64,000 bases of DNA. Source: Microbacterium sp. nov. GSS16 (lineage in GTDB: Bacteria > Actinomycetota > Actinomycetes > Actinomycetales > Microbacteriaceae). The position numbers and the translations under genes are program-made. The notes below the pieces were generated by a model. The model saw only the letters and a list, made by a program, of their open reading frames with translations, was not told the origin of the DNA and did not search any database. Below are positions 12,889 to 24,851 of the stretch, piece by piece. Every line of letters starts with the position of its first letter. Within the stretch, counting starts at the first letter, position 1. Where the stretch lies: positions 1,860,001-1,924,000 of the forward strand of contig NZ_CP116338.1 in assembly GCF_028198145.1 (NCBI RefSeq), given 5' to 3'.

Positions 12889-13464
12889 GTGCCCCTGGAA
12901 GACGAGCCGTTCGAGCCCGAGGTCATCTCCAGCGACCTGGCCTTCCATGGTGCCGTCTGGGACGTGCGCGACGACCGGGTGCGCTACGGCGACGGCGAGA
13001 TCCGCCGGCAGTACGTCGCGCACACCGGCGCCGTGGCGGTCGTCGCACTCGACGAGCAGGAGCGGGTGTTGCTGATCCAGCAGTACCGGCACCCGATCCG
13101 CCACCGCGACTGGGAACTGCCCGCGGGCCTGCTCGACGTCGCCGGCGAGGAGCCGGCGCACGCCGCCAGGCGCGAACTCGCCGAGGAGGCGGACATCGTC
13201 GCCGAGCATTGGGAGCACCTCGTATCGGCGTGGACGACCCCCGGCGGCAACGACGAGATGATCCACGTGTACCTGGCGACCGGGCTGTCGGACGCCGACG
13301 CCCATGACCGCCAGGACGAGGAGGCCGACATCCGCGTGGAGTGGGTGCCGCTGGCCGATGCGGCGGACGGCGTGATGGCCGGGCGGCTGCACAACGGCAT
13401 CCTGAGCATCGGCGTGCTCGCCGCCGAGCGGCGCCTGCGCGCGCAGCGACGCGACGAGCGCTGA
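12889..13464 (+). CDS. Nudix hydrolase, ADP-ribose pyrophosphatase type (Rv1700-type)
   Basis: 191 aa from a GTG start. The Nudix box region reads LPAGLLDVAGEEPAHAARRELAEEADI: the catalytic REL-EE core is present, but the usual Gly near the box end is Asp. The preceding VLLIQQYRHPIRHRDWELPAG and the downstream TTPGGNDEMIHVYLA are typical of ADP-ribose diphosphatases (NudF branch). It lies between pyrG and xerD, as Rv1700 does. Confidence 0.88.
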   Translation: MPLEDEPFEPEVISSDLAFHGAVWDVRDDRVRYGDGEIRRQYVAHTGAVAVVALDEQERVLLIQQYRHPIRHRDWELPAGLLDVAGEEPAHAARRELAEEADIVAEHWEHLVSAWTTPGGNDEMIHVYLATGLSDADAHDRQDEEADIRVEWVPLADAADGVMAGRLHNGILSIGVLAAERRLRAQRRDER

Positions 13465-13465
13465 G

Positions 13466-14368
13466 GTGCGGCTCGACCGGGCGCTGGACGCGTACGTGCG
13501 TCACGTCACGATCGAGCGCGGGCTCTCCGCGCACACCGTCGCCGCCTACCAGCGCGACCTGGCCGGATACGTCGCGTGGCTGGGGGAGCAGGGCATCGTG
13601 ACGACGGACGCGATCGACCCTCGCACCGTGACGGCGTTCATCGCCGATCGTGCGAGCGCCGACCCGCCACCGGCGGCGACGAGCCTTGCGCGGCTGCAGT
13701 CGGCCGTTCGCGGATGGCACCGCTTCCTCGTCAGGGAGGGGATCGAGAGCGCCGACCCGACCGGTCGGCTGCGGCCGCCGAAGACGCCGCAGCGCCTGCC
13801 CAAGGCACTCACCATCGAGCAGGTCGAGCGACTGCTCGCGGCCCCGTCGGCGGACGAGCCGATCGGGATGCGCGATCGCGCGCTGCTCGAACTGCTGTAC
13901 GCGACGGGGGCCCGGGTCTCGGAAGCCGTCTCGCTCGACGTCGACGACCTGGCCTACGGTGACGTGCTGCGCCTGCGCGGCAAGGGCGACAAGGAGCGCA
14001 TCGTGCCCGTGGGGTCGTTTGCGCGGGACGCCGTCGACGCCTACTTGACGCGCGTGCGTCCTGGACTTGCGGCCAGGGGCCGCGCGACCGCTCGGCTGTT
14101 CCTCGGAGCGCGAGGGGCGCCGCTGTCGCGGCAGAGCGTGTGGCTGGTCATCCGCGCCGCCGCCGAGCGCGCCCAGATCGACGCCGACGTGTCTCCGCAC
14201 ACCCTGCGGCACAGTTTCGCGACGCATTTGCTGCAGGGCGGCGCCGATGTGCGCGTCGTGCAGGAGCTGCTCGGCCACGCGTCGGTGGCGACCACTCAGA
14301 TCTACACGCACGTGTCGGTGGATGCCCTGCGCGACGTCTATGCGACGTCCCACCCCCGGGCGCGCTGA
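13466..14368 (+). CDS. xerD: Site-specific tyrosine recombinase XerD
   Basis: 300 aa. The N-terminal SAM-like core-binding domain is residues 1-90 (YVRHVTIERGLSAHTVAAYQRDL). The catalytic domain has Arg in ATGARVSEA, the Lys hairpin GKGDKERIVPVG, HTLRHSFATHLL, LLGHASVATTQIYTHVS with the Tyr nucleophile. With XerC it would resolve chromosome dimers at dif with FtsK. GTG start, 1 nt after the Nudix stop. It is a housekeeping member of the conserved cluster, not a sign of an integrated element. Confidence 0.93.
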   Translation: MRLDRALDAYVRHVTIERGLSAHTVAAYQRDLAGYVAWLGEQGIVTTDAIDPRTVTAFIADRASADPPPAATSLARLQSAVRGWHRFLVREGIESADPTGRLRPPKTPQRLPKALTIEQVERLLAAPSADEPIGMRDRALLELLYATGARVSEAVSLDVDDLAYGDVLRLRGKGDKERIVPVGSFARDAVDAYLTRVRPGLAARGRATARLFLGARGAPLSRQSVWLVIRAAAERAQIDADVSPHTLRHSFATHLLQGGADVRVVQELLGHASVATTQIYTHVSVDALRDVYATSHPRAR

Positions 14369-15351: not shown

Positions 15352-16201
15352 GTCGGTCGAGCGCGCTTCGACAGGCTCAGCGCCCCAGCCAGACGAGCCC
15401 GGCCGCCGCGCCGAGCCGCCTGACGCGTTCCGGGTCTCCCTGTCGAATTTCGACGGACCGTTCGACCTGCTGCTCACCCTCATCTCCAAGCACGAGCTCG
15501 ACATCACCGAGGTCTCGCTGAGCCGGGTCACCGATGAGTTCATCTCGTACCTGAAAGAGCTCGACGGCGACGCCGAGCTCGACCAGGCGTCGGAATTCCT
15601 CGTCGTGGCGGCCACCCTGCTCGACATGAAGATCGCGGGACTCCTGCCGCAGGGCGAGCTGGTGGATGCCGAATCCGTCGCCCTGCTCGAGGCGCGCGAC
15701 CTGCTGTTCGCGCGGCTGCTGCAGTACCGCGCGTTCAAGGAGGTCTCGGCGTGGTTCGCGCGGTGCCTGCAGCGGGAGGAGCGCCGGCATGTGCGCGCCG
15801 TGCCGCTCGACGAGAAGCACCGAAGTCGGACGCCCGAGCTGGTGTGGACGCTGACGCCCGCCGACTTCGCCGCGCTCGCGCTGATGGCGCTCACGCCGAA
15901 GGAGCTGCCGAGCGTCGGACTCGATCACCTGCACGCGCCGCTGGTGAGCATCCGCGAGCAGGCCGCGATCGTCGTGACGCTGCTGCGCAGCACCGAATCG
16001 CTGACCTTCCGCGAGCTCGTCGCGGGAATCAGCGAGCCGGGCATCGTGGTGGCGCGCTTCATCTCGGTGCTCGAGCTGTATCGCCACGCCGCGCTGTCGT
16101 TCGAGCAGCTCGAGCCGCTCGGCGAGCTGACCCTGCGCTGGTCGGCCGAGAGCTGGTCGGACGAGCAGCTGGCCACGTTGGGAGCAGACTATGACCGATG
16201 A
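15335..16201 (+). CDS. scpA: Segregation and condensation protein A
   Basis: 288 aa kleisin that bridges the SMC heads with ScpB. The family start FRVSLSNFDGPFDLLLTLISKHELDI begins near residue 32. The C-terminal winged-helix part is VTLLRSTESLTFRELV. GTG 15335 is the only plausible start and overlaps parA by 17 nt. Residues about 7-20 are encoded by a sequence matching a widespread actinobacterial REP-like element (15354-15384), so the N-terminus is probably a late addition. Confidence 0.92.
   Translation: MAPSPESVERASTGSAPQPDEPGRRAEPPDAFRVSLSNFDGPFDLLLTLISKHELDITEVSLSRVTDEFISYLKELDGDAELDQASEFLVVAATLLDMKIAGLLPQGELVDAESVALLEARDLLFARLLQYRAFKEVSAWFARCLQREERRHVRAVPLDEKHRSRTPELVWTLTPADFAALALMALTPKELPSVGLDHLHAPLVSIREQAAIVVTLLRSTESLTFRELVAGISEPGIVVARFISVLELYRHAALSFEQLEPLGELTLRWSAESWSDEQLATLGADYDR
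15354..15384 (+). repeat. REP-like palindromic element inside scpA 5' end
   Basis: GCGCGCTTCGACAGGCTCAG within 15361-15380 and its flanks match the TTCGACAGGCTCAGCG core that I know as an intergenic repeat in Microbacteriaceae and relatives. Here it is read in frame as VERASTGSAP. A diverged relative occurs at 53250-53290. Confidence 0.6.
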
Positions 16202-16934
16202 GATTGATGCCCGCACAGCGGCGCGGCCTGCTGACACGGACACCGCCGACGCAGACGCCGCCGCTGCCATCGCCGACGCGGACATCGCCGACGCGGACAT
16301 CGCCGACGCGGACATCTCCGACGCGGACACCGCCGACGCAGACACCGCCGACGCCGCCGGCGCCGCCGCGACAGCCGTGTCGCCGCTGGCCGAGCGCGTC
16401 GAGGCGATTCTGCTGATCGTCGACGAGCCGATCGGTGTCGTCGCCCTGGCCGCCGCCGTGCACGCGCCCGTTCCGGCGGTACGGCAGGTGCTCGGGCAGC
16501 TGGCGGACGACTATGACGGGCGCGGCACCGGGCCGCGCCGCGGCTTCGAGCTGCGCGAGGTCGGGGGTGGCTGGCGGCTGTACGTGCGCGATGACCACGA
16601 CGACCTCGTCGCGGACTTCATCGGCGGGCAGGCGCCGGCCCGGCTCTCCCAGGCCGCGCTCGAGACCCTCGCCGTCATCGCGTACAAGCAGCCCGTGACG
16701 CGCGGCCAGGTGGCATCCATCCGCGCCGTCAACGTCGACTCGGTCGTGCGCACCCTGCTCGCGCGCGGGCTCATCACCGAGCTGTTCGCCGACTCCGAGA
16801 CCGGCGCGATCAACTACGGCACCACCGACCAGCTGCTGCAGCACCTCGGCATCAACTCGATCGACGATCTGCCGCCCATCTCGCCGCTGCTCGACGACGG
16901 CGCCGACGGATTCGAAGAGGGAATCATCCGATGA
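16191..16934 (+). CDS. scpB: Segregation and condensation protein B
   Basis: 247 aa; the ScpB dimer binds the ScpA middle region to regulate SMC. The paired winged-helix core starts near residue 64 (LAERVEAILLIVDEPIGV) and includes LSQAALETLAVIAYKQPVTRGQVASIRAVNVDSVVRTL, the family signature. It is preceded by an unusual acidic tract of five DADIA/DADTA pentapeptides (residues about 28-52), encoded by 15-bp repeats. The ATG overlaps the scpA stop by 11 nt. Confidence 0.93.
   Translation: MTDEIDARTAARPADTDTADADAAAAIADADIADADIADADISDADTADADTADAAGAAATAVSPLAERVEAILLIVDEPIGVVALAAAVHAPVPAVRQVLGQLADDYDGRGTGPRRGFELREVGGGWRLYVRDDHDDLVADFIGGQAPARLSQAALETLAVIAYKQPVTRGQVASIRAVNVDSVVRTLLARGLITELFADSETGAINYGTTDQLLQHLGINSIDDLPPISPLLDDGADGFEEGIIR
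16272..16346 (+). repeat. Five 15-bp tandem repeats in scpB
   Basis: Units GCCGACGCGGACATC at 16272, 16287 and 16302, then two variants to 16346. Each unit encodes ADADI or a close variant. They expand the acidic N-terminal linker of ScpB. Confidence 0.92.
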
Positions 16935-17749
16935 GCACAGACCGGCCCCCCATGGACCAGCCCGAGGGCATCCGGCTGCAGAAGGCGCTCGCGAACGCCG
17001 GGGTGGCGTCGCGCCGCGTCATCGAGCAGTACATCGTCGAGGGGCGCATCCGCGTCAACGGCAGGACGATCACCGAGCTCGGCACCCGCATCGACCCCGA
17101 GACCGACCTCATCGACGTCGACGGCACCGCGGTGCAGCTCGACGTCTCGAAGCGCTACGTGATGCTGAACAAGCCCACCGGCGTGGTCAGCACCATGAAG
17201 GACGAGAACGGTCGTCCCGACCTCCGCCGCTTCACCAAGGACTGGCCCGAGCGGCTGTACAACGTCGGTCGGCTGGATGCCGAGACCAGCGGCCTGCTCA
17301 TCCTCACCAACGACGGCGATCTCGCGCACGTGCTCGCGCATCCGTCGTTCGGCGTCACCAAGGTGTACATCGCCAAGGTGTCCGGCTCCGTCACCGCGCA
17401 GACGATCGCTCAGCTGACACGCGGCGTCGACCTGGAGGACGGACCGATCAAGGCCGATAAGGCCCGGCTCCTCGACACTTCCCGCGGGTCGAGCCTGGTC
17501 GAGCTCACCCTGCACTCTGGGCGCAACCGGATCGTCCGTCGCATGATGGCGGCGGTCGGGCATCCGGTCGACGAGCTGGTGCGCCGCCAGTTCGGGCCGC
17601 TGCACCTGGGAACCCTCCCGGTCGGCAAGGCGCGCGAGCTGACTAAAATCGAACGAGGCGCACTGCTGACTCTGTCGCGCCAGGATTCCCCGGCGCCCGC
17701 TGCCTCCGAGCAGCGCCCCGCCGACGACAGCCCTCAGGAGAACGAGTGA
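16931..17749 (+). CDS. rluB: 23S rRNA pseudouridine synthase, RluB family
   Basis: 272 aa. An S4 domain (IRLQKALANAGVASRRVIEQYI) is followed by the RsuA/RluB catalytic domain, with the catalytic Asp in VGRLDAETSGLLILTNDG and the LTLHSGRNRIVRRMM motif. RluB makes pseudouridine 2605 (E. coli numbering) in 23S rRNA. The ATG overlaps the scpB stop by 4 nt. The C-terminal 30 residues are low-complexity. RluB versus RsuA or RluE is decided mainly by synteny with scpB. Confidence 0.9.
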   Translation: MSTDRPPMDQPEGIRLQKALANAGVASRRVIEQYIVEGRIRVNGRTITELGTRIDPETDLIDVDGTAVQLDVSKRYVMLNKPTGVVSTMKDENGRPDLRRFTKDWPERLYNVGRLDAETSGLLILTNDGDLAHVLAHPSFGVTKVYIAKVSGSVTAQTIAQLTRGVDLEDGPIKADKARLLDTSRGSSLVELTLHSGRNRIVRRMMAAVGHPVDELVRRQFGPLHLGTLPVGKARELTKIERGALLTLSRQDSPAPAASEQRPADDSPQENE

Positions 17750-18870
17750 CCGATTCGCACGGAGCGCGTGCGGCCCAGAACGCCGCACGGCTCTCGGGCA
17801 CGGTGCGTGTCGTGGGGGCAGGACTCCTCGGCTCGAGCATCGGGCACGCCCTCAGCGCCAAGGGCGTCGATGTCGTGCTCGCCGACGCGTCGCCGTCGCA
17901 GCTTCGGCTCGCCATCGACTATGGCGCCGGCCGGCCCGCGCGTGACGATGACGCACCACGCCTGATCGTCGTCGCCGTCCCGCCGGATGTCACCGCCGAC
18001 GTCATCGAGGCCGAGCTGACCGCGTATCCGGATGCCGTGGTCACCGACGTCGCGAGCGTCAAGCTCGAGCCGTTCGACGAGCTGCGCCGCCGCGGCGTCG
18101 ATCTGACCCGCTACATCGGCTCGCACCCGCTCGCCGGGCGCGAGCGCGGGGGAGCGATCTCGGCGCGCGCCGACCTGTTCATCGGGCGCCCCTGGGTGGT
18201 CTGCCGCGACGAGCAGACACGGGCCGCAGACCTCGCGCTGGTCGAGGCGCTGGCGCTCGACGTCGGCGCGATGCCGCTCGAGATGACCCCCGACGAGCAC
18301 GACCGCGCCGTCGCGCTCACCTCGCATGTGCCGCAGGTCGTCGCGAGCCTGCTCGCCGGTCGTCTGGCGCAGGCCGACGAGGGGTCGCTGCGTCTCGCCG
18401 GCCAGGGGGTGCGCGACACCACCCGCATCGCCGCGTCGGCGCCCGAGCTGTGGGTACAGATCCTCGGTGCGAACGCCGCGCCGGTCGTCGAGCTGCTCGA
18501 TGCTCTGGCCGTCGACCTCAGCGATGTCGCCGAGGCCCTGCGCGAACCCCAGGCGCCCGGTGCGCGCCGGACGGTGGCGGATGCCATTCGCCAGGGCAAC
18601 GAGGGCGTGGAGCGCCTGCCGGGCAAGCACGGCCAGAACCGCCGGTTCGAGACGATGGTCGTCATGGTCGACGACACCCCCGGTCAGCTGGGTCGCCTGT
18701 TCGGCGAACTGGGCGAGCTGGGTGTGAACGTGGAGGATCTGCGTCTGGAGCACTCGCCCGGCGCCCAGTTCGGTCTCGCCGAGATCAGCGTCGCGCCAGC
18801 AGCGCTGCGCGGTGCGATCGAAGGACTGGAAGAGCGCGGCTGGCGGATTGCGGGGAACACCAATGACTGA
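17746..18870 (+). CDS. tyrA: Prephenate dehydrogenase
   Basis: 374 aa from GTG 17746, overlapping the rluB stop by 4 nt. The NAD(P)-binding fingerprint [10 protein letters not shown] begins near residue 26. [11 protein letters not shown] is the TyrA prephenate-binding segment. A C-terminal ACT-type domain ([28 protein letters not shown]) suggests allosteric control, probably by tyrosine. It oxidises prephenate to 4-hydroxyphenylpyruvate. The stop overlaps cmk by 8 nt. Confidence 0.92.
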
Positions 18871-19549
18871 TGCTTCGAAGTTCATCGCGATCGACGGACC
18901 GGCCGGCTCCGGCAAGTCCAGCGTCTCGAAGGAGATCGCGCGTCGCGAGGGCTATGGCTACCTCGACACCGGTGCCGCATACCGCGCGCTGGCCTGGCAC
19001 GTGCTCGACCGTGGCGACGACACGGCCGATGCCGACGCGGTCCGCGCGGCGGCATCCGACTTCCCCTTCTCGCAGGGACTCGACCCCGACGACCGGATCG
19101 TGCGCGTCGGTGACGCCGACGTGACCGCGGCCATCCGCGAGCCACGGGTGTCGAGCGCGGTCAGCGGGGTCGCCCGGGTGCCCGAGATCCGGGTGCAGGT
19201 GAACGAGATGTTCCGCCGCATCGTCGCCGAGTCCGACTACCCGGCCGTGATCGTCGAAGGACGAGACATCACCACCGTCGTGGCGCCGGACGCGCCCGTG
19301 CGGATTCTGCTCACCGCCGCGCCGGAGGTGCGCGCCGCCCGGCGCGCCGGCGAGCTCGCGGGCGAGAACGCCGCCGCTGTCGCGGACGCGCTGCACAAGC
19401 GCGACGCATCCGACAGCGCCGTCGTCGACTTCCTCAACGCCGCAGAGGGCGTTGACGTGGTCGACTCCACCGAACTTGATTTCGCGCAGACCATCGACGC
19501 CGTGCTCGCGGTGATCGCCCAGCGGCGCGACGCTGACAGAGGAGCTTGA
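18863..19549 (+). CDS. cmk: Cytidylate kinase
   Basis: 228 aa NMP kinase with P-loop [31 protein letters not shown] (CMP-binding region) and [16 protein letters not shown]. It phosphorylates CMP/dCMP. ATG 18863 is chosen because the family starts about six residues before the P-loop; an ATG 51 nt upstream would add an unrelated N-terminus. It feeds the same pyrimidine pool as pyrG, 6 kb upstream. Confidence 0.95.
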
Positions 19550-19551
19550 AC

Positions 19552-21072
19552 ATGGCCGATGAAGAGTACACCGGCGCCCCCGACGATCTCGCCGAGAAGA
19601 TGGCCTCGCTCGACGAGGACTTCGCCGAGCAGCGCGCCACCGCGATGCGCGCATCGCTCAGCGACTACGAGCTGGAAGAAGACGACGCCGCGCTGCTGGA
19701 GGGCATCGCCCTCGGCGAGGACGGCATCGAGTACTCGCCCGCCCTGCCCGTGGTGGCGATCGTGGGCCGCCCGAACGTCGGCAAGTCGGCGCTGGTGAAT
19801 CGCATCCTCGGCCGCCGTGAAGCGGTCGTCGAAGACACCCCCGGTGTTACGCGTGACCGCGTGACGTACAAGGCCGAGTGGAGCGATCGTCGATTCTCGC
19901 TCGTCGACACCGGTGGCTGGGAGCCGGATGCCAAGGGCATCGACCGCTCGGTCGCAGCGCAGGCCGAGGTCGCGATCGACCTCGCCGACATGGTGCTGTT
20001 CGTCGTCGACGCGAAGGTGGGCGCCACCTCGACAGACGAGCACGTCGTGAAGCTGCTGCGCAAGAGCGGCAAGCCGGTGTTCCTCGTCGCGAACAAGATC
20101 GACGACGCGCGCCAGGAGCCGGAGGCGGCGCCGCTGTGGAACCTGGGTCTCGGCGAGCCGCATCCCGTCTCGGCCATCCACGGCCGCGGCGTGGCCGACC
20201 TGCTCGACCTCGTCATCGCGAAGCTGCCCGAGGTGTCGGCCGTCGCGAAGGCGGAGATCGGCGGTCCGCGCCGCGTCGCGATCATCGGCCGCCCGAACGT
20301 GGGCAAGTCGTCGCTGCTGAACAAGGCAGCCGGCGAGGAGCGCGTGGTCGTGAACGACCTGGCCGGCACCACCCGCGACCCGGTCGACGAGATCGTCGAG
20401 CTGGGCGGCAAGATGTGGCGTCTGGTCGACACCGCGGGCATCCGCCGCCGTGTGCACCTGCAGCAGGGGGCTGACTTCTACGCGTCGCTGCGCACCTCGG
20501 CCGCGCTCGAGAAGGCCGAGGTCGCCGTCGTCGTGCTCGACGTGTCGCAGCCGATCAGCGTGCAGGACCTGAACATCATCGACATGGTGCTCGAGTCGGG
20601 GCGCGCGCTCGTGCTCGCGTTCAACAAGTGGGATCGTCTGTCGGACGACGACATGGAGAACAGCGACCGTCGCCGCTACCTCGAGCGCGAGATCGAGCAG
20701 GACCTCGCGCACGTGGCCTGGGCGCCGCGCGTGAACATCTCGGCGAAGACCGGGCGGCACCTCGACAAGCTCGTGCCCGCCCTCGAGCAGGCGCTCGAGA
20801 ACTGGGACCGGCGCATCCCGACCGGCAAGTTCAACGCGTTCATCACCGAGCTCGTCGCCGCGCACCCGCACCCGCTGCGCGGAGGCAAGCAGCCGCGCAT
20901 CCTGTTCGGCACCCAGGCGTCGACGCGCCCGCCGACGTTCGTGCTCTTCACGACCGGGTTCCTCGACCCCGGCTACCGCCGCTTCGTGCAGCGGCGTCTG
21001 CGCGAGCTGTACGAGTTCGAGGGCACGCCGATCGTCATCAACATGCGCGTGCGGGAGCGTCGCCAGCGCTGA
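19552..21072 (+). CDS. der: Ribosome biogenesis GTPase Der (EngA)
   Basis: 506 aa with two tandem GTPase domains: G1 motifs [12 protein letters not shown] and [13 protein letters not shown]4 motifs NKID and NKWD, and a C-terminal KH-like domain ending [11 protein letters not shown]. Der acts in 50S subunit assembly. ATG 19552 has AGAGGAG at 8-nt spacing; an in-frame TTG at 19546 sits too close to that site. The N-terminal 55 residues are an acidic extension common in Actinobacteria. The gene closes the conserved run. Confidence 0.95.
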
Positions 21073-21175: not shown

Positions 21176-22246
21176 ATGTCGCACACCCTGCCCCTGCCCG
21201 ATTTCACCCACGAGCGTGTGGAGGTGATCACCGGTCAGCGCAGCGGGCTGTTCATCGCCGTGGCGCTGCATTCGTCGGTGCTCGGCTCTGCCCTCGGCGG
21301 CGCGCGCCTGTGGACCTACCCGCACTGGAGCGACGCTCTCGGCGACGCGCTGCGGCTCTCGGCGGCGATGACGCTGAAGAACGCAGCCGCAGGGCTGGAT
21401 GCCGGCGGCGGCAAGTCGGTGATCGGGCTTGCACCCGGCGAGAATCTCGACGCCGATCGCAGGCGTGACGCGTTCCTCGACCTCGGCGACGCCGTCGAGT
21501 TGATGGGCGGCCTGTACCGCACGGCGGAGGATGTCGGCTCGACCACCGACGACATGCTCACGGTCAGCGAGCGCACGCAGCACGTGGTCGGACTGCCGTC
21601 GACCGTGGGCGGCTCGGGCGAGCCGGCCGGCCCCACCAGCCTCGGCGTGTACGCGTCCCTGCAGGCCGTGCTCGAGCGGGTCACCGGCTCGGCGGAGGCC
21701 GCGGGCCGTCGCATCACGATCTCGGGTCTCGGACAGGTCGGTGGTCGACTGGCCTCCCGTCTCGCCGAGCAGGGAGCGCAGCTGACGGTGACCGACATCA
21801 ACCCCGCCCGCCGGGCTTTCGCCGAGGAGATCGGGGCCACCTGGGTCGAGCCCGGCACCGAGCATCTGATCGCCGGCGACGTGTTCGTGCCGGCTGGCAT
21901 CGGCGGAGTGCTCACCGACGAGGTCATCGACGCCCTCGAGGTGAAGGCCGTGTGCGGTCCCGCGAACAACCCGCTCGCCGATCGATCGGGTGCCGACCGT
22001 CTCGCGCAGCGCGGTGTGCTGTACGCGCCGGACTTCGTGGTGAACGCCGGTGGCGTCATCTACCTCGACCTCGAGGCGAAGCGCATCGGGTCGAGCGAGG
22101 AGATCATGCAGCGCGTGGCTGGGATCGGCGGCACCGTTCGCCGGATCCTCGACGACGCCGAGACCCGGGGCGTGACGCCGCTGCTCGCCGCCGAGGAGCT
22201 CGCCGCGTCACGGCTGCGGGCAGGGGCCGCGGTCGCCGCACGCTGA
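21176..22246 (+). CDS. Leu/Val/Phe-type amino-acid dehydrogenase (Glu/Leu/Phe/Val family)
   Basis: 356 aa. The N-terminal substrate domain has LGGARLWTYPHWSDALGDALRLSAAMTLKNAAAGLDAGGGKSVI, with the conserved active-site lysines (LKNA, GGGKS). The C-terminal NAD domain has ISGLGQVGGRLASRLAEQGA and the CGPANNPLAD motif. It oxidatively deaminates a branched-chain or aromatic amino acid with NAD; the exact substrate cannot be told. GAGGA upstream of ATG 21176 is the ribosome site. Confidence 0.9.
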   Translation: MSHTLPLPDFTHERVEVITGQRSGLFIAVALHSSVLGSALGGARLWTYPHWSDALGDALRLSAAMTLKNAAAGLDAGGGKSVIGLAPGENLDADRRRDAFLDLGDAVELMGGLYRTAEDVGSTTDDMLTVSERTQHVVGLPSTVGGSGEPAGPTSLGVYASLQAVLERVTGSAEAAGRRITISGLGQVGGRLASRLAEQGAQLTVTDINPARRAFAEEIGATWVEPGTEHLIAGDVFVPAGIGGVLTDEVIDALEVKAVCGPANNPLADRSGADRLAQRGVLYAPDFVVNAGGVIYLDLEAKRIGSSEEIMQRVAGIGGTVRRILDDAETRGVTPLLAAEELAASRLRAGAAVAAR

Positions 22247-22299
22247 TCTTCTCGGCGTCCGTCGCGCCTGTGGGCGTCGCGGCATGAAAGGCTGGGGGA

Positions 22300-23226
22300 G
22301 TGACGATCGTTCCCCCGGGCCCCGATGAGCCGCGTCGCCCGCACGGGCCGCAGGACCCGGGAGACGCGTGGGTCGTCGCGGAGACGGGTGAGAAGTACTG
22401 GGGGCGCTACGGCGCGGCCGGGGTTCTCGCCGTCGACTCGTCGCGTGGCGTGCTGCTGCAGCATCGAGTCGGTTGGAGTCACTTCGGCGGCACCTGGGGG
22501 ATCCCCGGTGGGGCGCTGCACCGGGACGAGACGGCGCTCGACGGTGCTCTGCGCGAAGCGCAGGAAGAGGCCGGCATCCCCGACGGCGCGTTGCACGCCC
22601 GGTTCGCGCGGGTGCTCGACCTGCGGATCTGGTCGTACACCACGGTCGTCGCCGATGTGCTCGCCCCGTTCGATCCGGTGATCAGCGATCCCGAGAGCCT
22701 CGCCCTGGAATGGGTTGCGATCGACGAGGTCGATCAGCGGCCGCTGCACCCGGGTTTCGCCGCGTCGTGGCCGCTGCTGCGCTCGCTGCTGACCGTGCAC
22801 CCGGCGATCGTGGTCGACGCGGCGAACGTCGTCGGCTCGGTGCCGGACGGCTGGTGGAAGGACCGCGCGGGTGCCGCCTCGCGGCTGCACGCCCGGCTGT
22901 CGGCCTGGGTCGCCGCCGGGGTGGAGGCCGATGACCTGAGCCTCGAAGCCGATCGCTGGTTCCCCCCGGTGTCGATGGTCGTGGAGGGAGCCGCCCGCGA
23001 CATCCCGGATGCCCGCCACCAGACGCACGGCGCCCGCGTCGCCATCGTCCGCGCCGAGGGGGCCGGGGACGATGCGATCGTCGCAGAAGCCCGCCGCCTC
23101 GGCGTCGACGGGGCCGAGGTGATCGCGGTGACCAGCGACCGAGGACTCGCCGCGCGGCTCGACGATGTCGGCGCGCGGGTCGAGCCGGCCGGCTGGCTGC
23201 TGCGCCAGATGGATGCCCGCCCCTGA
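22300..23226 (+). CDS. Nudix hydrolase fused to a YacP-like NYN (PIN-type) domain
   Basis: 308 aa from GTG 22300. Residues about 45-165 are a Nudix domain with Nudix box GGALHRDETALDGALREAQEEAG. Residues about 166-308 are unlike ordinary Nudix C-termini: IVVDAANVVGSVPDGWWKDRAGAASRL and VIAVTSDRGLAARL carry the conserved acidic positions of NYN/PIN ribonucleases of the YacP (Rae1) type. The product would join nucleotide or cap-like pyrophosphate hydrolysis to RNA cleavage. Domain assignment is by pattern; the joint function is inference. Confidence 0.75.
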   Translation: MTIVPPGPDEPRRPHGPQDPGDAWVVAETGEKYWGRYGAAGVLAVDSSRGVLLQHRVGWSHFGGTWGIPGGALHRDETALDGALREAQEEAGIPDGALHARFARVLDLRIWSYTTVVADVLAPFDPVISDPESLALEWVAIDEVDQRPLHPGFAASWPLLRSLLTVHPAIVVDAANVVGSVPDGWWKDRAGAASRLHARLSAWVAAGVEADDLSLEADRWFPPVSMVVEGAARDIPDARHQTHGARVAIVRAEGAGDDAIVAEARRLGVDGAEVIAVTSDRGLAARLDDVGARVEPAGWLLRQMDARP

Positions 23227-23308
23227 CCCGACGGCAGCTGGTCAGAACGGCGGCTGCTGCGCCAGATGGATGCTCGCGGCTGACCCTACGGCAGCTGGTC
23301 AGAACGGA
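23195..23308 (+). repeat. 57-bp tandem duplication at convergent gene ends
   Basis: Copy 1 (23195-23251) includes the last 32 nt of the Nudix-NYN gene and its stop. Copy 2 (23252-23308) repeats it with a few substitutions. A third copy begins (GGCTGCT) and then diverges. The HNH gene's stop and last codons on the other strand lie inside copy 2. Confidence 0.92.
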
Positions 23309-24825
23309 GGCTGCTCCGGTGGATCGCCCGAGTCGAGCCAGTCCGGCGGACCCGGTGGCTCGACCGAGGACACGAACATCACCCGACGGTTCGGCCTGTC
23401 GCGATAGCGCCGCCCGTTCGGGCTGACCCATTCGACCGAGCGGTCGGGAAGCTGGCGGGCGTACCACCGATGGCTATCGGGGATGTCGGGGTGCTTGAGC
23501 GGGTGATGTCTGGCGCAGAAGTGCGCGAGGTTGTCGATGTGGGTCTTTCCGCCCAGCGCCCAGTCCTCATTGTGATCGATCTCGCACCGGTGGATCGGAG
23601 CACGGCATCCGGGGAATCGGCAGTGCTGATCCCGGGCCCGCAGGAACCGGCGCATCTGCTCGGTGGGCGTGTAGGTGTCGGTCTCGACGACCATGCCGGC
23701 GGGGTCGAGGAACAGCCTCGTCCAGCCCGTGCGGAGACCGGAGAGCGAGCGGGCGACGGCCGGATCCAGCGGCCCGCGTCCGTCCAGTTCGGCGGGGAGG
23801 TCGTCCTCTCCGACGAGGGTCGTGGCGGCGACCGTCACCTGGATGGTGGCGTGGATGTTCTCCAGCCCCGTTCCGTGTGCCTCGGTGGGGATCGACGCGA
23901 GCAGCAGGTCGGTGAACAGGTCGGTGCGCAGCTGATCCATCGTCCTCGTGTCGGCGGGGACGTGGGTGATGCAGGGGCTGTCATCGCGGAACTTCGGGTC
24001 GAGAGGCGGCTCGAACGGGTCGGCCGTGAAGGTGTGCGATCCGAAGATCGCGCTCTCCATCAGATCGCCGTCGGCATGCGGCGTGCGGTCGTCCAGCGGC
24101 AGCAGGGTCTCGGGGTCGAGCCCGACGTCCTCCGGCTCCGACGGGCCGAGGTCTGGACCGCGGTCTTCAGGGTGCTTCTGCATGTGCCGGGCCATCTTGG
24201 TGAGCCGGTCGACGATGGCGACTCCCAGATGCTCCGGAAGCACCGCCTGAAGCAGCACGAGCCCGTCGCCGATCGAGCGCACCGTGACCGTGCGCTCGGC
24301 CGCAGCGCGCTCATGCTGCTCGACGACCGTCGACCCGGCCAGCGCTGCGGCGATGCGACGCGCCTGTGCCCGGGTGCGCGCCGCGGTGTCGTTCTCGGCT
24401 GTCTCGAGGGCCGCAGCCTCGTAGAGCAGCAGGGTGCCGGCCTCGACCGCGCCCGTCTCGATCGCCTCGCGCACCGGCCGGGCTTCGCGCAGGATCTCGC
24501 GCACGTGGTGAGGGGTGATGCGCCCTGCGGCGAACGATGCACGCACCGTCTCGAACTCCGTCGCCAGCAGATGAGCGTCGGTGAACGCGAACGTCATCGA
24601 TCCCTGCGCGACACGGCCCGCTGCGGCGTATTCGGCCATCATCGACCGCTCGATGGCATCCCGGTGCTGCGGTGCGGCCGACACCTCGTCCTGCCACAGC
24701 TCCCACCGACGAGCGAGCAGGTCCGACGCCTCGGCCTGCAGCGCCGCGATCTCACGCTGCTTCGCCGCCCACTCGTCGAGCAGCGCGATGCGCCGTTCGA
24801 TGAGAGCCTGCATCTCGTCCGCCAT
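23299..24825 (-). CDS. HNH endonuclease of the DUF222 / 13E12 repeat family
   Basis: 508 aa. A long N-terminal DUF222 domain is followed by a Cys-containing HNH motif near the C-terminus: CRFPGCRAPIHRCEIDHNEDW then LAHFCARHHPLKH. These genes are repeated in actinobacterial genomes; several in M. tuberculosis (13E12 family) are reported in the LexA regulon. I choose ATG 24825 (MADEMQAL) rather than ATG 24843, because the latter lies inside an SOS-like box. Its 3' end lies in a 57-bp duplication. Biological role unknown; it may be a homing-type or damage-induced nuclease. Confidence 0.88.
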   Translation of the reverse strand: MADEMQALIERRIALLDEWAAKQREIAALQAEASDLLARRWELWQDEVSAAPQHRDAIERSMMAEYAAAGRVAQGSMTFAFTDAHLLATEFETVRASFAAGRITPHHVREILREARPVREAIETGAVEAGTLLLYEAAALETAENDTAARTRAQARRIAAALAGSTVVEQHERAAAERTVTVRSIGDGLVLLQAVLPEHLGVAIVDRLTKMARHMQKHPEDRGPDLGPSEPEDVGLDPETLLPLDDRTPHADGDLMESAIFGSHTFTADPFEPPLDPKFRDDSPCITHVPADTRTMDQLRTDLFTDLLLASIPTEAHGTGLENIHATIQVTVAATTLVGEDDLPAELDGRGPLDPAVARSLSGLRTGWTRLFLDPAGMVVETDTYTPTEQMRRFLRARDQHCRFPGCRAPIHRCEIDHNEDWALGGKTHIDNLAHFCARHHPLKHPDIPDSHRWYARQLPDRSVEWVSPNGRRYRDRPNRRVMFVSSVEPPGPPDWLDSGDPPEQPPF

Positions 24826-24835
24826 GTGTTCAGAG

Positions 24836-24851
24836 TAGAACATACGTACGA
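24836..24851 (-). promoter_or_regulatory. SOS (LexA)-like box upstream of HNH/DUF222 gene
   Basis: TAGAAC-ATAC-GTACGA matches the actinobacterial SOS consensus TCGAAC-N4-GTTCGA at 10 of 12 half-site positions. It lies 10-26 bp before ATG 24825 on the minus strand, consistent with overlapping the promoter. Confidence 0.6.

Follow-up and report, generated by a model that had tools for sequence, protein, structure and literature searches.

The locus and the encoded protein

The stretch of 64,000 nucleotides analysed here (the window; Microbacterium sp. nov. GSS16, contig NZ_CP116338.1, positions 1,860,001 to 1,924,000) contains, at positions 22300-23226 of its forward strand, an open reading frame (ORF) that starts with GTG and encodes a protein of 308 amino acids. 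The original prediction, made from the DNA letters, had placed here a Nudix domain fused to a YacP-like NYN/PIN ribonuclease domain, and the ORF is present as described. On the evidence of sequence, profile and structural model, the protein has a RenU-type Nudix domain whose Nudix box is complete; about four residues link it to a YacP/Rae1-type NYN domain in which the predicted metal-binding acids are retained. A scan of genome contigs found 542 relatives, of which the best 80 were kept; together with the window they make up the 81 rows of the main alignment. Further comparisons covered 37 intact fusions from several families and 21 stand-alone NYN proteins. The arrangement is not due to chance motifs or a misread frame, since all the 80 kept relatives encode the same two-domain protein and the catalytic residues that were checked are all unchanged. 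The features are the following:

22290..22299 (+): purine-rich stretch ahead of the GTG, by eye a possible ribosome binding site
22300..23226 (+): whole gene, 308 amino acids plus stop; encoded in 80/80 kept loci
22300..22356 (+): N-terminal extension, residues 1-19, common to the stand-alone Nudix protein of family f2 (L017)
22357..22800 (+): RenU-type Nudix domain, residues 20-167
22510..22578 (+): Nudix box, residues 71-93, a motif seen in the sequence; E77, R85, E86, E89 and E90 in 81/81
22789..22800 (+): residues 164-167, which according to the model link the last Nudix helix to the first NYN strand (about four residues)
22801..23223 (+): YacP/Rae1-type NYN domain, residues 168-308, assigned by profile match and predicted fold
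22816..22827 (+): first active-site motif, D173 to N176; 81/81, 37/37 intact fusions, 21/21 stand-alone NYN proteins
22843..22866 (+): PDGWWKDR signature, residues 182-189, typical of the actinobacterial NYN subfamily; W185 and W186 in 37/37 and 21/21
22984..22986 (+): E229, the second acid, for which Rae1 has an aligned aspartate (alignments)
23068..23073 (+): D257-D258, both in 81/81; D257 is aligned with a conserved Rae1 aspartate
23137..23139 (+): D280 in TSDRGL, the last active-site aspartate (alignments)

The spacing from W157 to D173 is 13, 15 or 16 residues in 44/44 fusions. A tandem duplication of 57 base pairs (2.2 copies, 91% matches; window 23190-23315) covers the end of the fusion gene and its stop codon; in three relatives (L031, L032, L033) one copy only of the unit was seen by eye in the 160 bases inspected.

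The Nudix half

The full Nudix box predicted for the N-terminal half is complete, residues 71-93 reading GX5EX7REUXEEXGU. Pfam NUDIX (PF00293) matches residues 39-151 with an E-value of 8.4e-16 and 58.6 bits, the cut-off being 21.1. The nearest solved structure by sequence is RenU of Mycobacterium smegmatis (E 1.8e-33; next best 6.8e-5), and RenU is the closest relative in both sequence and fold; the profile for RenU-type Nudix proteins (A5) includes fused and stand-alone members. According to PMC4401782, RenU prefers ADP-ribose, flavin adenine dinucleotide (FAD) and NADH, shows much lower activity on the nucleoside triphosphates tested and does not hydrolyse NAD+; it is part of a redox system and associates with ribosomal protein L13.

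The window contains a second Nudix gene at 12889-13464 (+), near to the mycobacterial ADP-ribose pyrophosphatase 1mk1 (E 1.3e-41), and the whole genome has 12 Nudix matches, this gene included. With a separate ADP-ribose pyrophosphatase-like gene among them, the fusion probably does not exist for the plain clearance of ADP-ribose. The ORF directly after this second gene (13466-14368) is tyrosine recombinase-like by eye.

The NYN half

The motifs noted earlier in the C-terminal half were confirmed: VVDAANVV (171-178), KDRAG (187-191) and TSDRGL (278-283). The search against PF05991 (NYN_YacP), which had been proposed as a check, fails at face value for the window protein, which scored 10.3 bits in the genome search, under the cut-off of 24.6, and had no match at E up to 10 in the Pfam search, where the C-terminal half by itself yielded nothing usable. 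However, the assignment to the NYN family is well supported, because PF05991 matches among the relatives at E<=0.01 (15 of the 26 members of A2, 6 of the 42 fused proteins of A3), the C-terminal profile matches the solved Rae1 structure and the predicted fold agrees, the model of this half having an NYN/PIN-like fold. Thus, the C-terminal half is filed as a YacP-like fold and subfamily, rather than as a scored member of PF05991.

Two other candidates were discarded. RedAm-like_C (PF21761) on residues 204-277 reached 21.8 bits, below its cut-off of 27, and was found in only 1/26 and 1/42 members, the fold being that of Rae1; AlBeta86 (9vgj), at first with E 0.012, fell to E 0.28 with a better profile and was taken as a chance match. 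A better match to a non-nuclease fold or a lack of conserved acids in orthologues would have spoken against the predicted nuclease; no better match of this kind appeared, and D173, E229, D257 and D280 are conserved in 81/81, 37/37 and 21/21.

PMC6613710 describes Rae1 as an endoribonuclease of the ribosomal A site and R166P as a Bacillus subtilis suppressor allele. For an NYN nuclease of Bacteroides fragilis, PMC11346440 reports that RNA is cut only with Mn2+ and that a change of the first aspartate abolishes cutting.

Residue conservation and selection

Eleven residues are unchanged in the 81 rows: E77, R85, E86, E89 and E90 in the Nudix half, and D173, N176, E229, D257, D258 and D280 in the NYN half. 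Of the 141 columns of the NYN half, 30 are at least 98% conserved and all six residues are among them (P 6e-5, with the reservation that they had been chosen as known motifs). Outside the main alignment, D173, N176, E229, D257 and D280 are found in 37/37 intact fusions and in 21/21 stand-alone NYN proteins, D258 in 36/37 and 15/21, respectively. Both halves look to be under purifying selection: the median ratio of non-synonymous to synonymous substitution rates (dN/dS) is 0.195 for the Nudix half and 0.42 for the NYN half (from the 905 pairs, out of 3240, whose dS lay within 0.05-1.0 for both halves).

Distribution and evolutionary history

The distribution of the two halves was followed in 246 genomes of the class, for which a completeness of at least 90% was asked. 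RenU-type Nudix proteins were found at E<=1e-27 in 147/246 genomes and NYN proteins at E<=7.8e-18 in 131/246; at E<=1e-6 the latter number rises to 150, the additional 19 genomes, whose matches are weaker, being omitted from the count. The halves are fused in 56 genomes from 12 families, both present but apart in 25, while 66 genomes have the Nudix half only, 50 the NYN half only and 49 neither; these figures leave aside the second parts of split hits, as well as a weak additional Nudix hit (G166), and seven degraded fusions of family f19 are counted as Nudix only. None of the 25 genomes with separate halves has both within 10 kilobases on one contig. All the 8 sampled genomes of the window's genus, its own included, carry the fusion. 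In a sample of the phylum (198 genomes), 13 match at E<=1e-40, and both halves are covered only by the window's own match. Named relatives include Microbacterium, and distant fusions were found, among others, in Planomonospora, Microbispora, Planotetraspora, Microtetraspora, Streptosporangium and Planobispora. On these sequences, the fusion is an old, widespread actinomycete protein, conserved across many actinobacteria.

Phylogenetic analyses of the two halves gave different results. Fused rows are scattered among stand-alone ones in the Nudix tree, where the approximately unbiased (AU) test rejects a single fused clade (p-AU 2.5e-65 with and 1e-68 without the degraded rows), whereas for the NYN tree a single fused clade is not rejected (p-AU 0.256); both trees leave out the duplicates L001, L148 and L149, and the NYN tree also drops the seven degraded rows. 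This pattern fits one fusion followed by repeated loss of the NYN half. One ancient fusion with repeated losses is the simplest account of the sequences; several fusions are also possible, given that the deep branches are weak.

Family f19 seems to show nuclease loss under way. Here, seven fusions (L143, L157-L162) have an intact Nudix box and a degraded NYN site, where, in a rough alignment of these rows, N176 is kept in 0/7, E229 in 1/7, D257 in 2/7, D280 in 3/7 and D173 in 5/7; two related Nudix proteins (L141, L169) are without NYN tail, and together they may form a decay series.

Gene neighbourhood

In Microbacterium, relatives of the five ORFs at 16191-16931, 16931-17746, 17746-18867, 18812-19546 and 19546-21069 occur in 28-30 of 30 loci (29 of them from the 80 kept, the other being L186; some are short), but 19 loci of other families have none. 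Neighbours common to two families occur, for example in f11/f31, f23/f27 and f19/f30. The gene directly upstream of the fusion, a Glu/Leu/Phe/Val dehydrogenase (21176-22246, +), has relatives in only 9 of the 30 Microbacterium loci and may therefore be a variable insertion, the preceding genes being found in 28-30. On the other side, a DUF222 protein (23299-24843, -), with an HNH-like motif at its end by eye, converges on the fusion gene. Another gene converges on it in five loci of family f22 (L171, L172, L173, L185, L189); by its sequence, it looks Ku-like.

Proposed function and alternatives

By likeness to RenU and Rae1, the Nudix half probably shares the hydrolysis of ADP-X compounds (ADP-ribose, FAD and NADH) with RenU, and the NYN half is probably a metal-dependent endoribonuclease. 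We lean towards a bifunctional enzyme, where the Nudix half would act on ADP-X compounds and the NYN half is a predicted endoribonuclease. It is possible, though doubtful, that both halves serve one pathway, RNA turnover, most plausibly by decapping and cutting of the same RNA: a 5' end of the ADP-X type, FAD, NADH or ADP-ribose, would be taken off by the Nudix half, and the NYN half would cut the RNA on which the Nudix half acts. The fullest version, a one-chain RNA-decay machine in which redox-coenzyme ends are removed, the same transcripts are cut and RNA turnover is tied to redox state, must be regarded as unlikely. The original prediction had proposed removal of a 5' pyrophosphate or an NAD-type cap before cutting; the specificity of RenU speaks against 5'-triphosphate and NAD+ caps as the obvious substrates and leaves RNA ended by FAD, NADH or ADP-ribose as a possible target.

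Several results weigh against this reading. An NAD+ cap is unlikely because RenU does not hydrolyse NAD+. The Rae1 tail past residue 133, R166 included, is lacking, the alignment stopping at Rae1 132-133. No neighbour is common to more than two families but the fusion itself, and in the class genomes the two halves co-occur no more than by chance (both in 81, NYN alone in 50, Nudix alone in 66, neither in 49; Fisher p 0.52). Finally, the degraded f19 fusions show that some lineages can do without an intact nuclease site, which argues against an obligate coupling.

The co-occurrence data bear as well on an alternative in which two largely independent housekeeping activities, a coenzyme-clearing Nudix enzyme and an RNase, were fused once and have been kept in some lineages without substrate coupling. 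This is rather improbable in our judgement: the lack of co-occurrence beyond chance, with 66 genomes having the Nudix half only (degraded f19 included) and 50 the NYN half only, agrees with it, as do the tree results (Nudix p-AU 1e-68, NYN 0.256), which fit one fusion and repeated NYN loss; however, the short constant link and the high predicted template modelling score (pTM) of the model suggest more than a loose tether, and the fusion persists in 12 families. It is quite unlikely that the Nudix half is instead a sensor that, on binding or hydrolysing ADP-ribose, FAD or NADH, would switch the NYN nuclease and link RNA cutting or translation to the redox state. The association of RenU with L13 within a redox system (PMC4401782), the description of Rae1 as an enzyme of the ribosomal A site (PMC6613710) and the close packing of the halves in the model would be consistent with a sensor, but the Nudix box is kept as in a working enzyme in 81/81 rows and the Rae1 tail is absent. 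That the NYN half is a non-catalytic appendage, giving the Nudix enzyme shape or stability, is very unlikely, since, despite the seven f19 fusions with a degraded NYN tail beside an intact Nudix box and the window protein lying under the PF05991 cut-off, six NYN residues are kept in 81/81 rows though only 30/141 columns reach 98% (P 6e-5, the residues having been chosen as known motifs), and five of the six in 37/37 intact fusions.

The predicted nuclease half is hidden by public annotation: relatives are named NUDIX hydrolase, 8-oxo-dGTP diphosphatase, NTP pyrophosphohydrolase or similar, and PF05991 is annotated in 0/120 and 2/120 relatives among the matches listed in two listings. The databases name the Nudix half only. 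If both sites work, a single protein in a large bacterial class would tie the hydrolysis of coenzymes to the decay of RNA. It would then become open to direct test by which enzymes actinobacteria remove metabolite caps and how the RNA is cut afterwards; for this, the fusions of f19 with their degraded site provide a natural contrast to the intact ones.

Comparison with known systems

Both families are known; relative to the literature searched, their combination in one protein is new. No description of a Nudix-NYN fusion was found in those sources, available in part, though earlier PIN/NYN classification or Rae1 work might mention one, and the survey of the Nudix clan (PMC5389931) has 0 occurrences of an NYN or PIN domain. 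RenU, formerly MutT3 (PDB 6uuf), is a stand-alone Nudix protein, with 167 residues in the PDB chain and without an NYN half. Rae1/YacP of B. subtilis (PDB 5mq8/5mq9) also stands alone and has only 20% identity to the NYN half of the window protein; it has an aspartate where the latter has E229, and the PDGWWKDR signature is absent from it. Stand-alone actinobacterial NYN proteins (e.g. P0204, P0208, P0214) have the same subfamily motifs, PDGWWKDR included, without the Nudix half. In the stand-alone NYN proteins of family f6 (L127, L128, L129), VFE replaces VEG, ADD replaces GDD and PDGWWKDR is kept; in their genomes a RenU-type Nudix gene is located elsewhere. Mycobacterial MutT1 (5gg6, 9cxx) also has an N-terminal Nudix domain and a C-terminal domain, which is of another kind, a histidine phosphatase; superposition is poor (rmsd, root-mean-square deviation, 5.8).

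The eukaryotic decapping enzyme DCP2 is of the Nudix type. An NYN endoribonuclease is found alongside decapping in two eukaryotic cases: MARF1 binds DCP1:DCP2 (PMC6294520) and DNE1 interacts with decapping proteins (PMC10226599). Differently from the fusion, the partners are separate proteins and belong to other subfamilies; by analogy only, they make a decapping-plus-cutting role worth considering. If true, the fusion would represent an actinobacterial counterpart of the eukaryotic partnership between a Nudix decapping enzyme and an NYN endonuclease.
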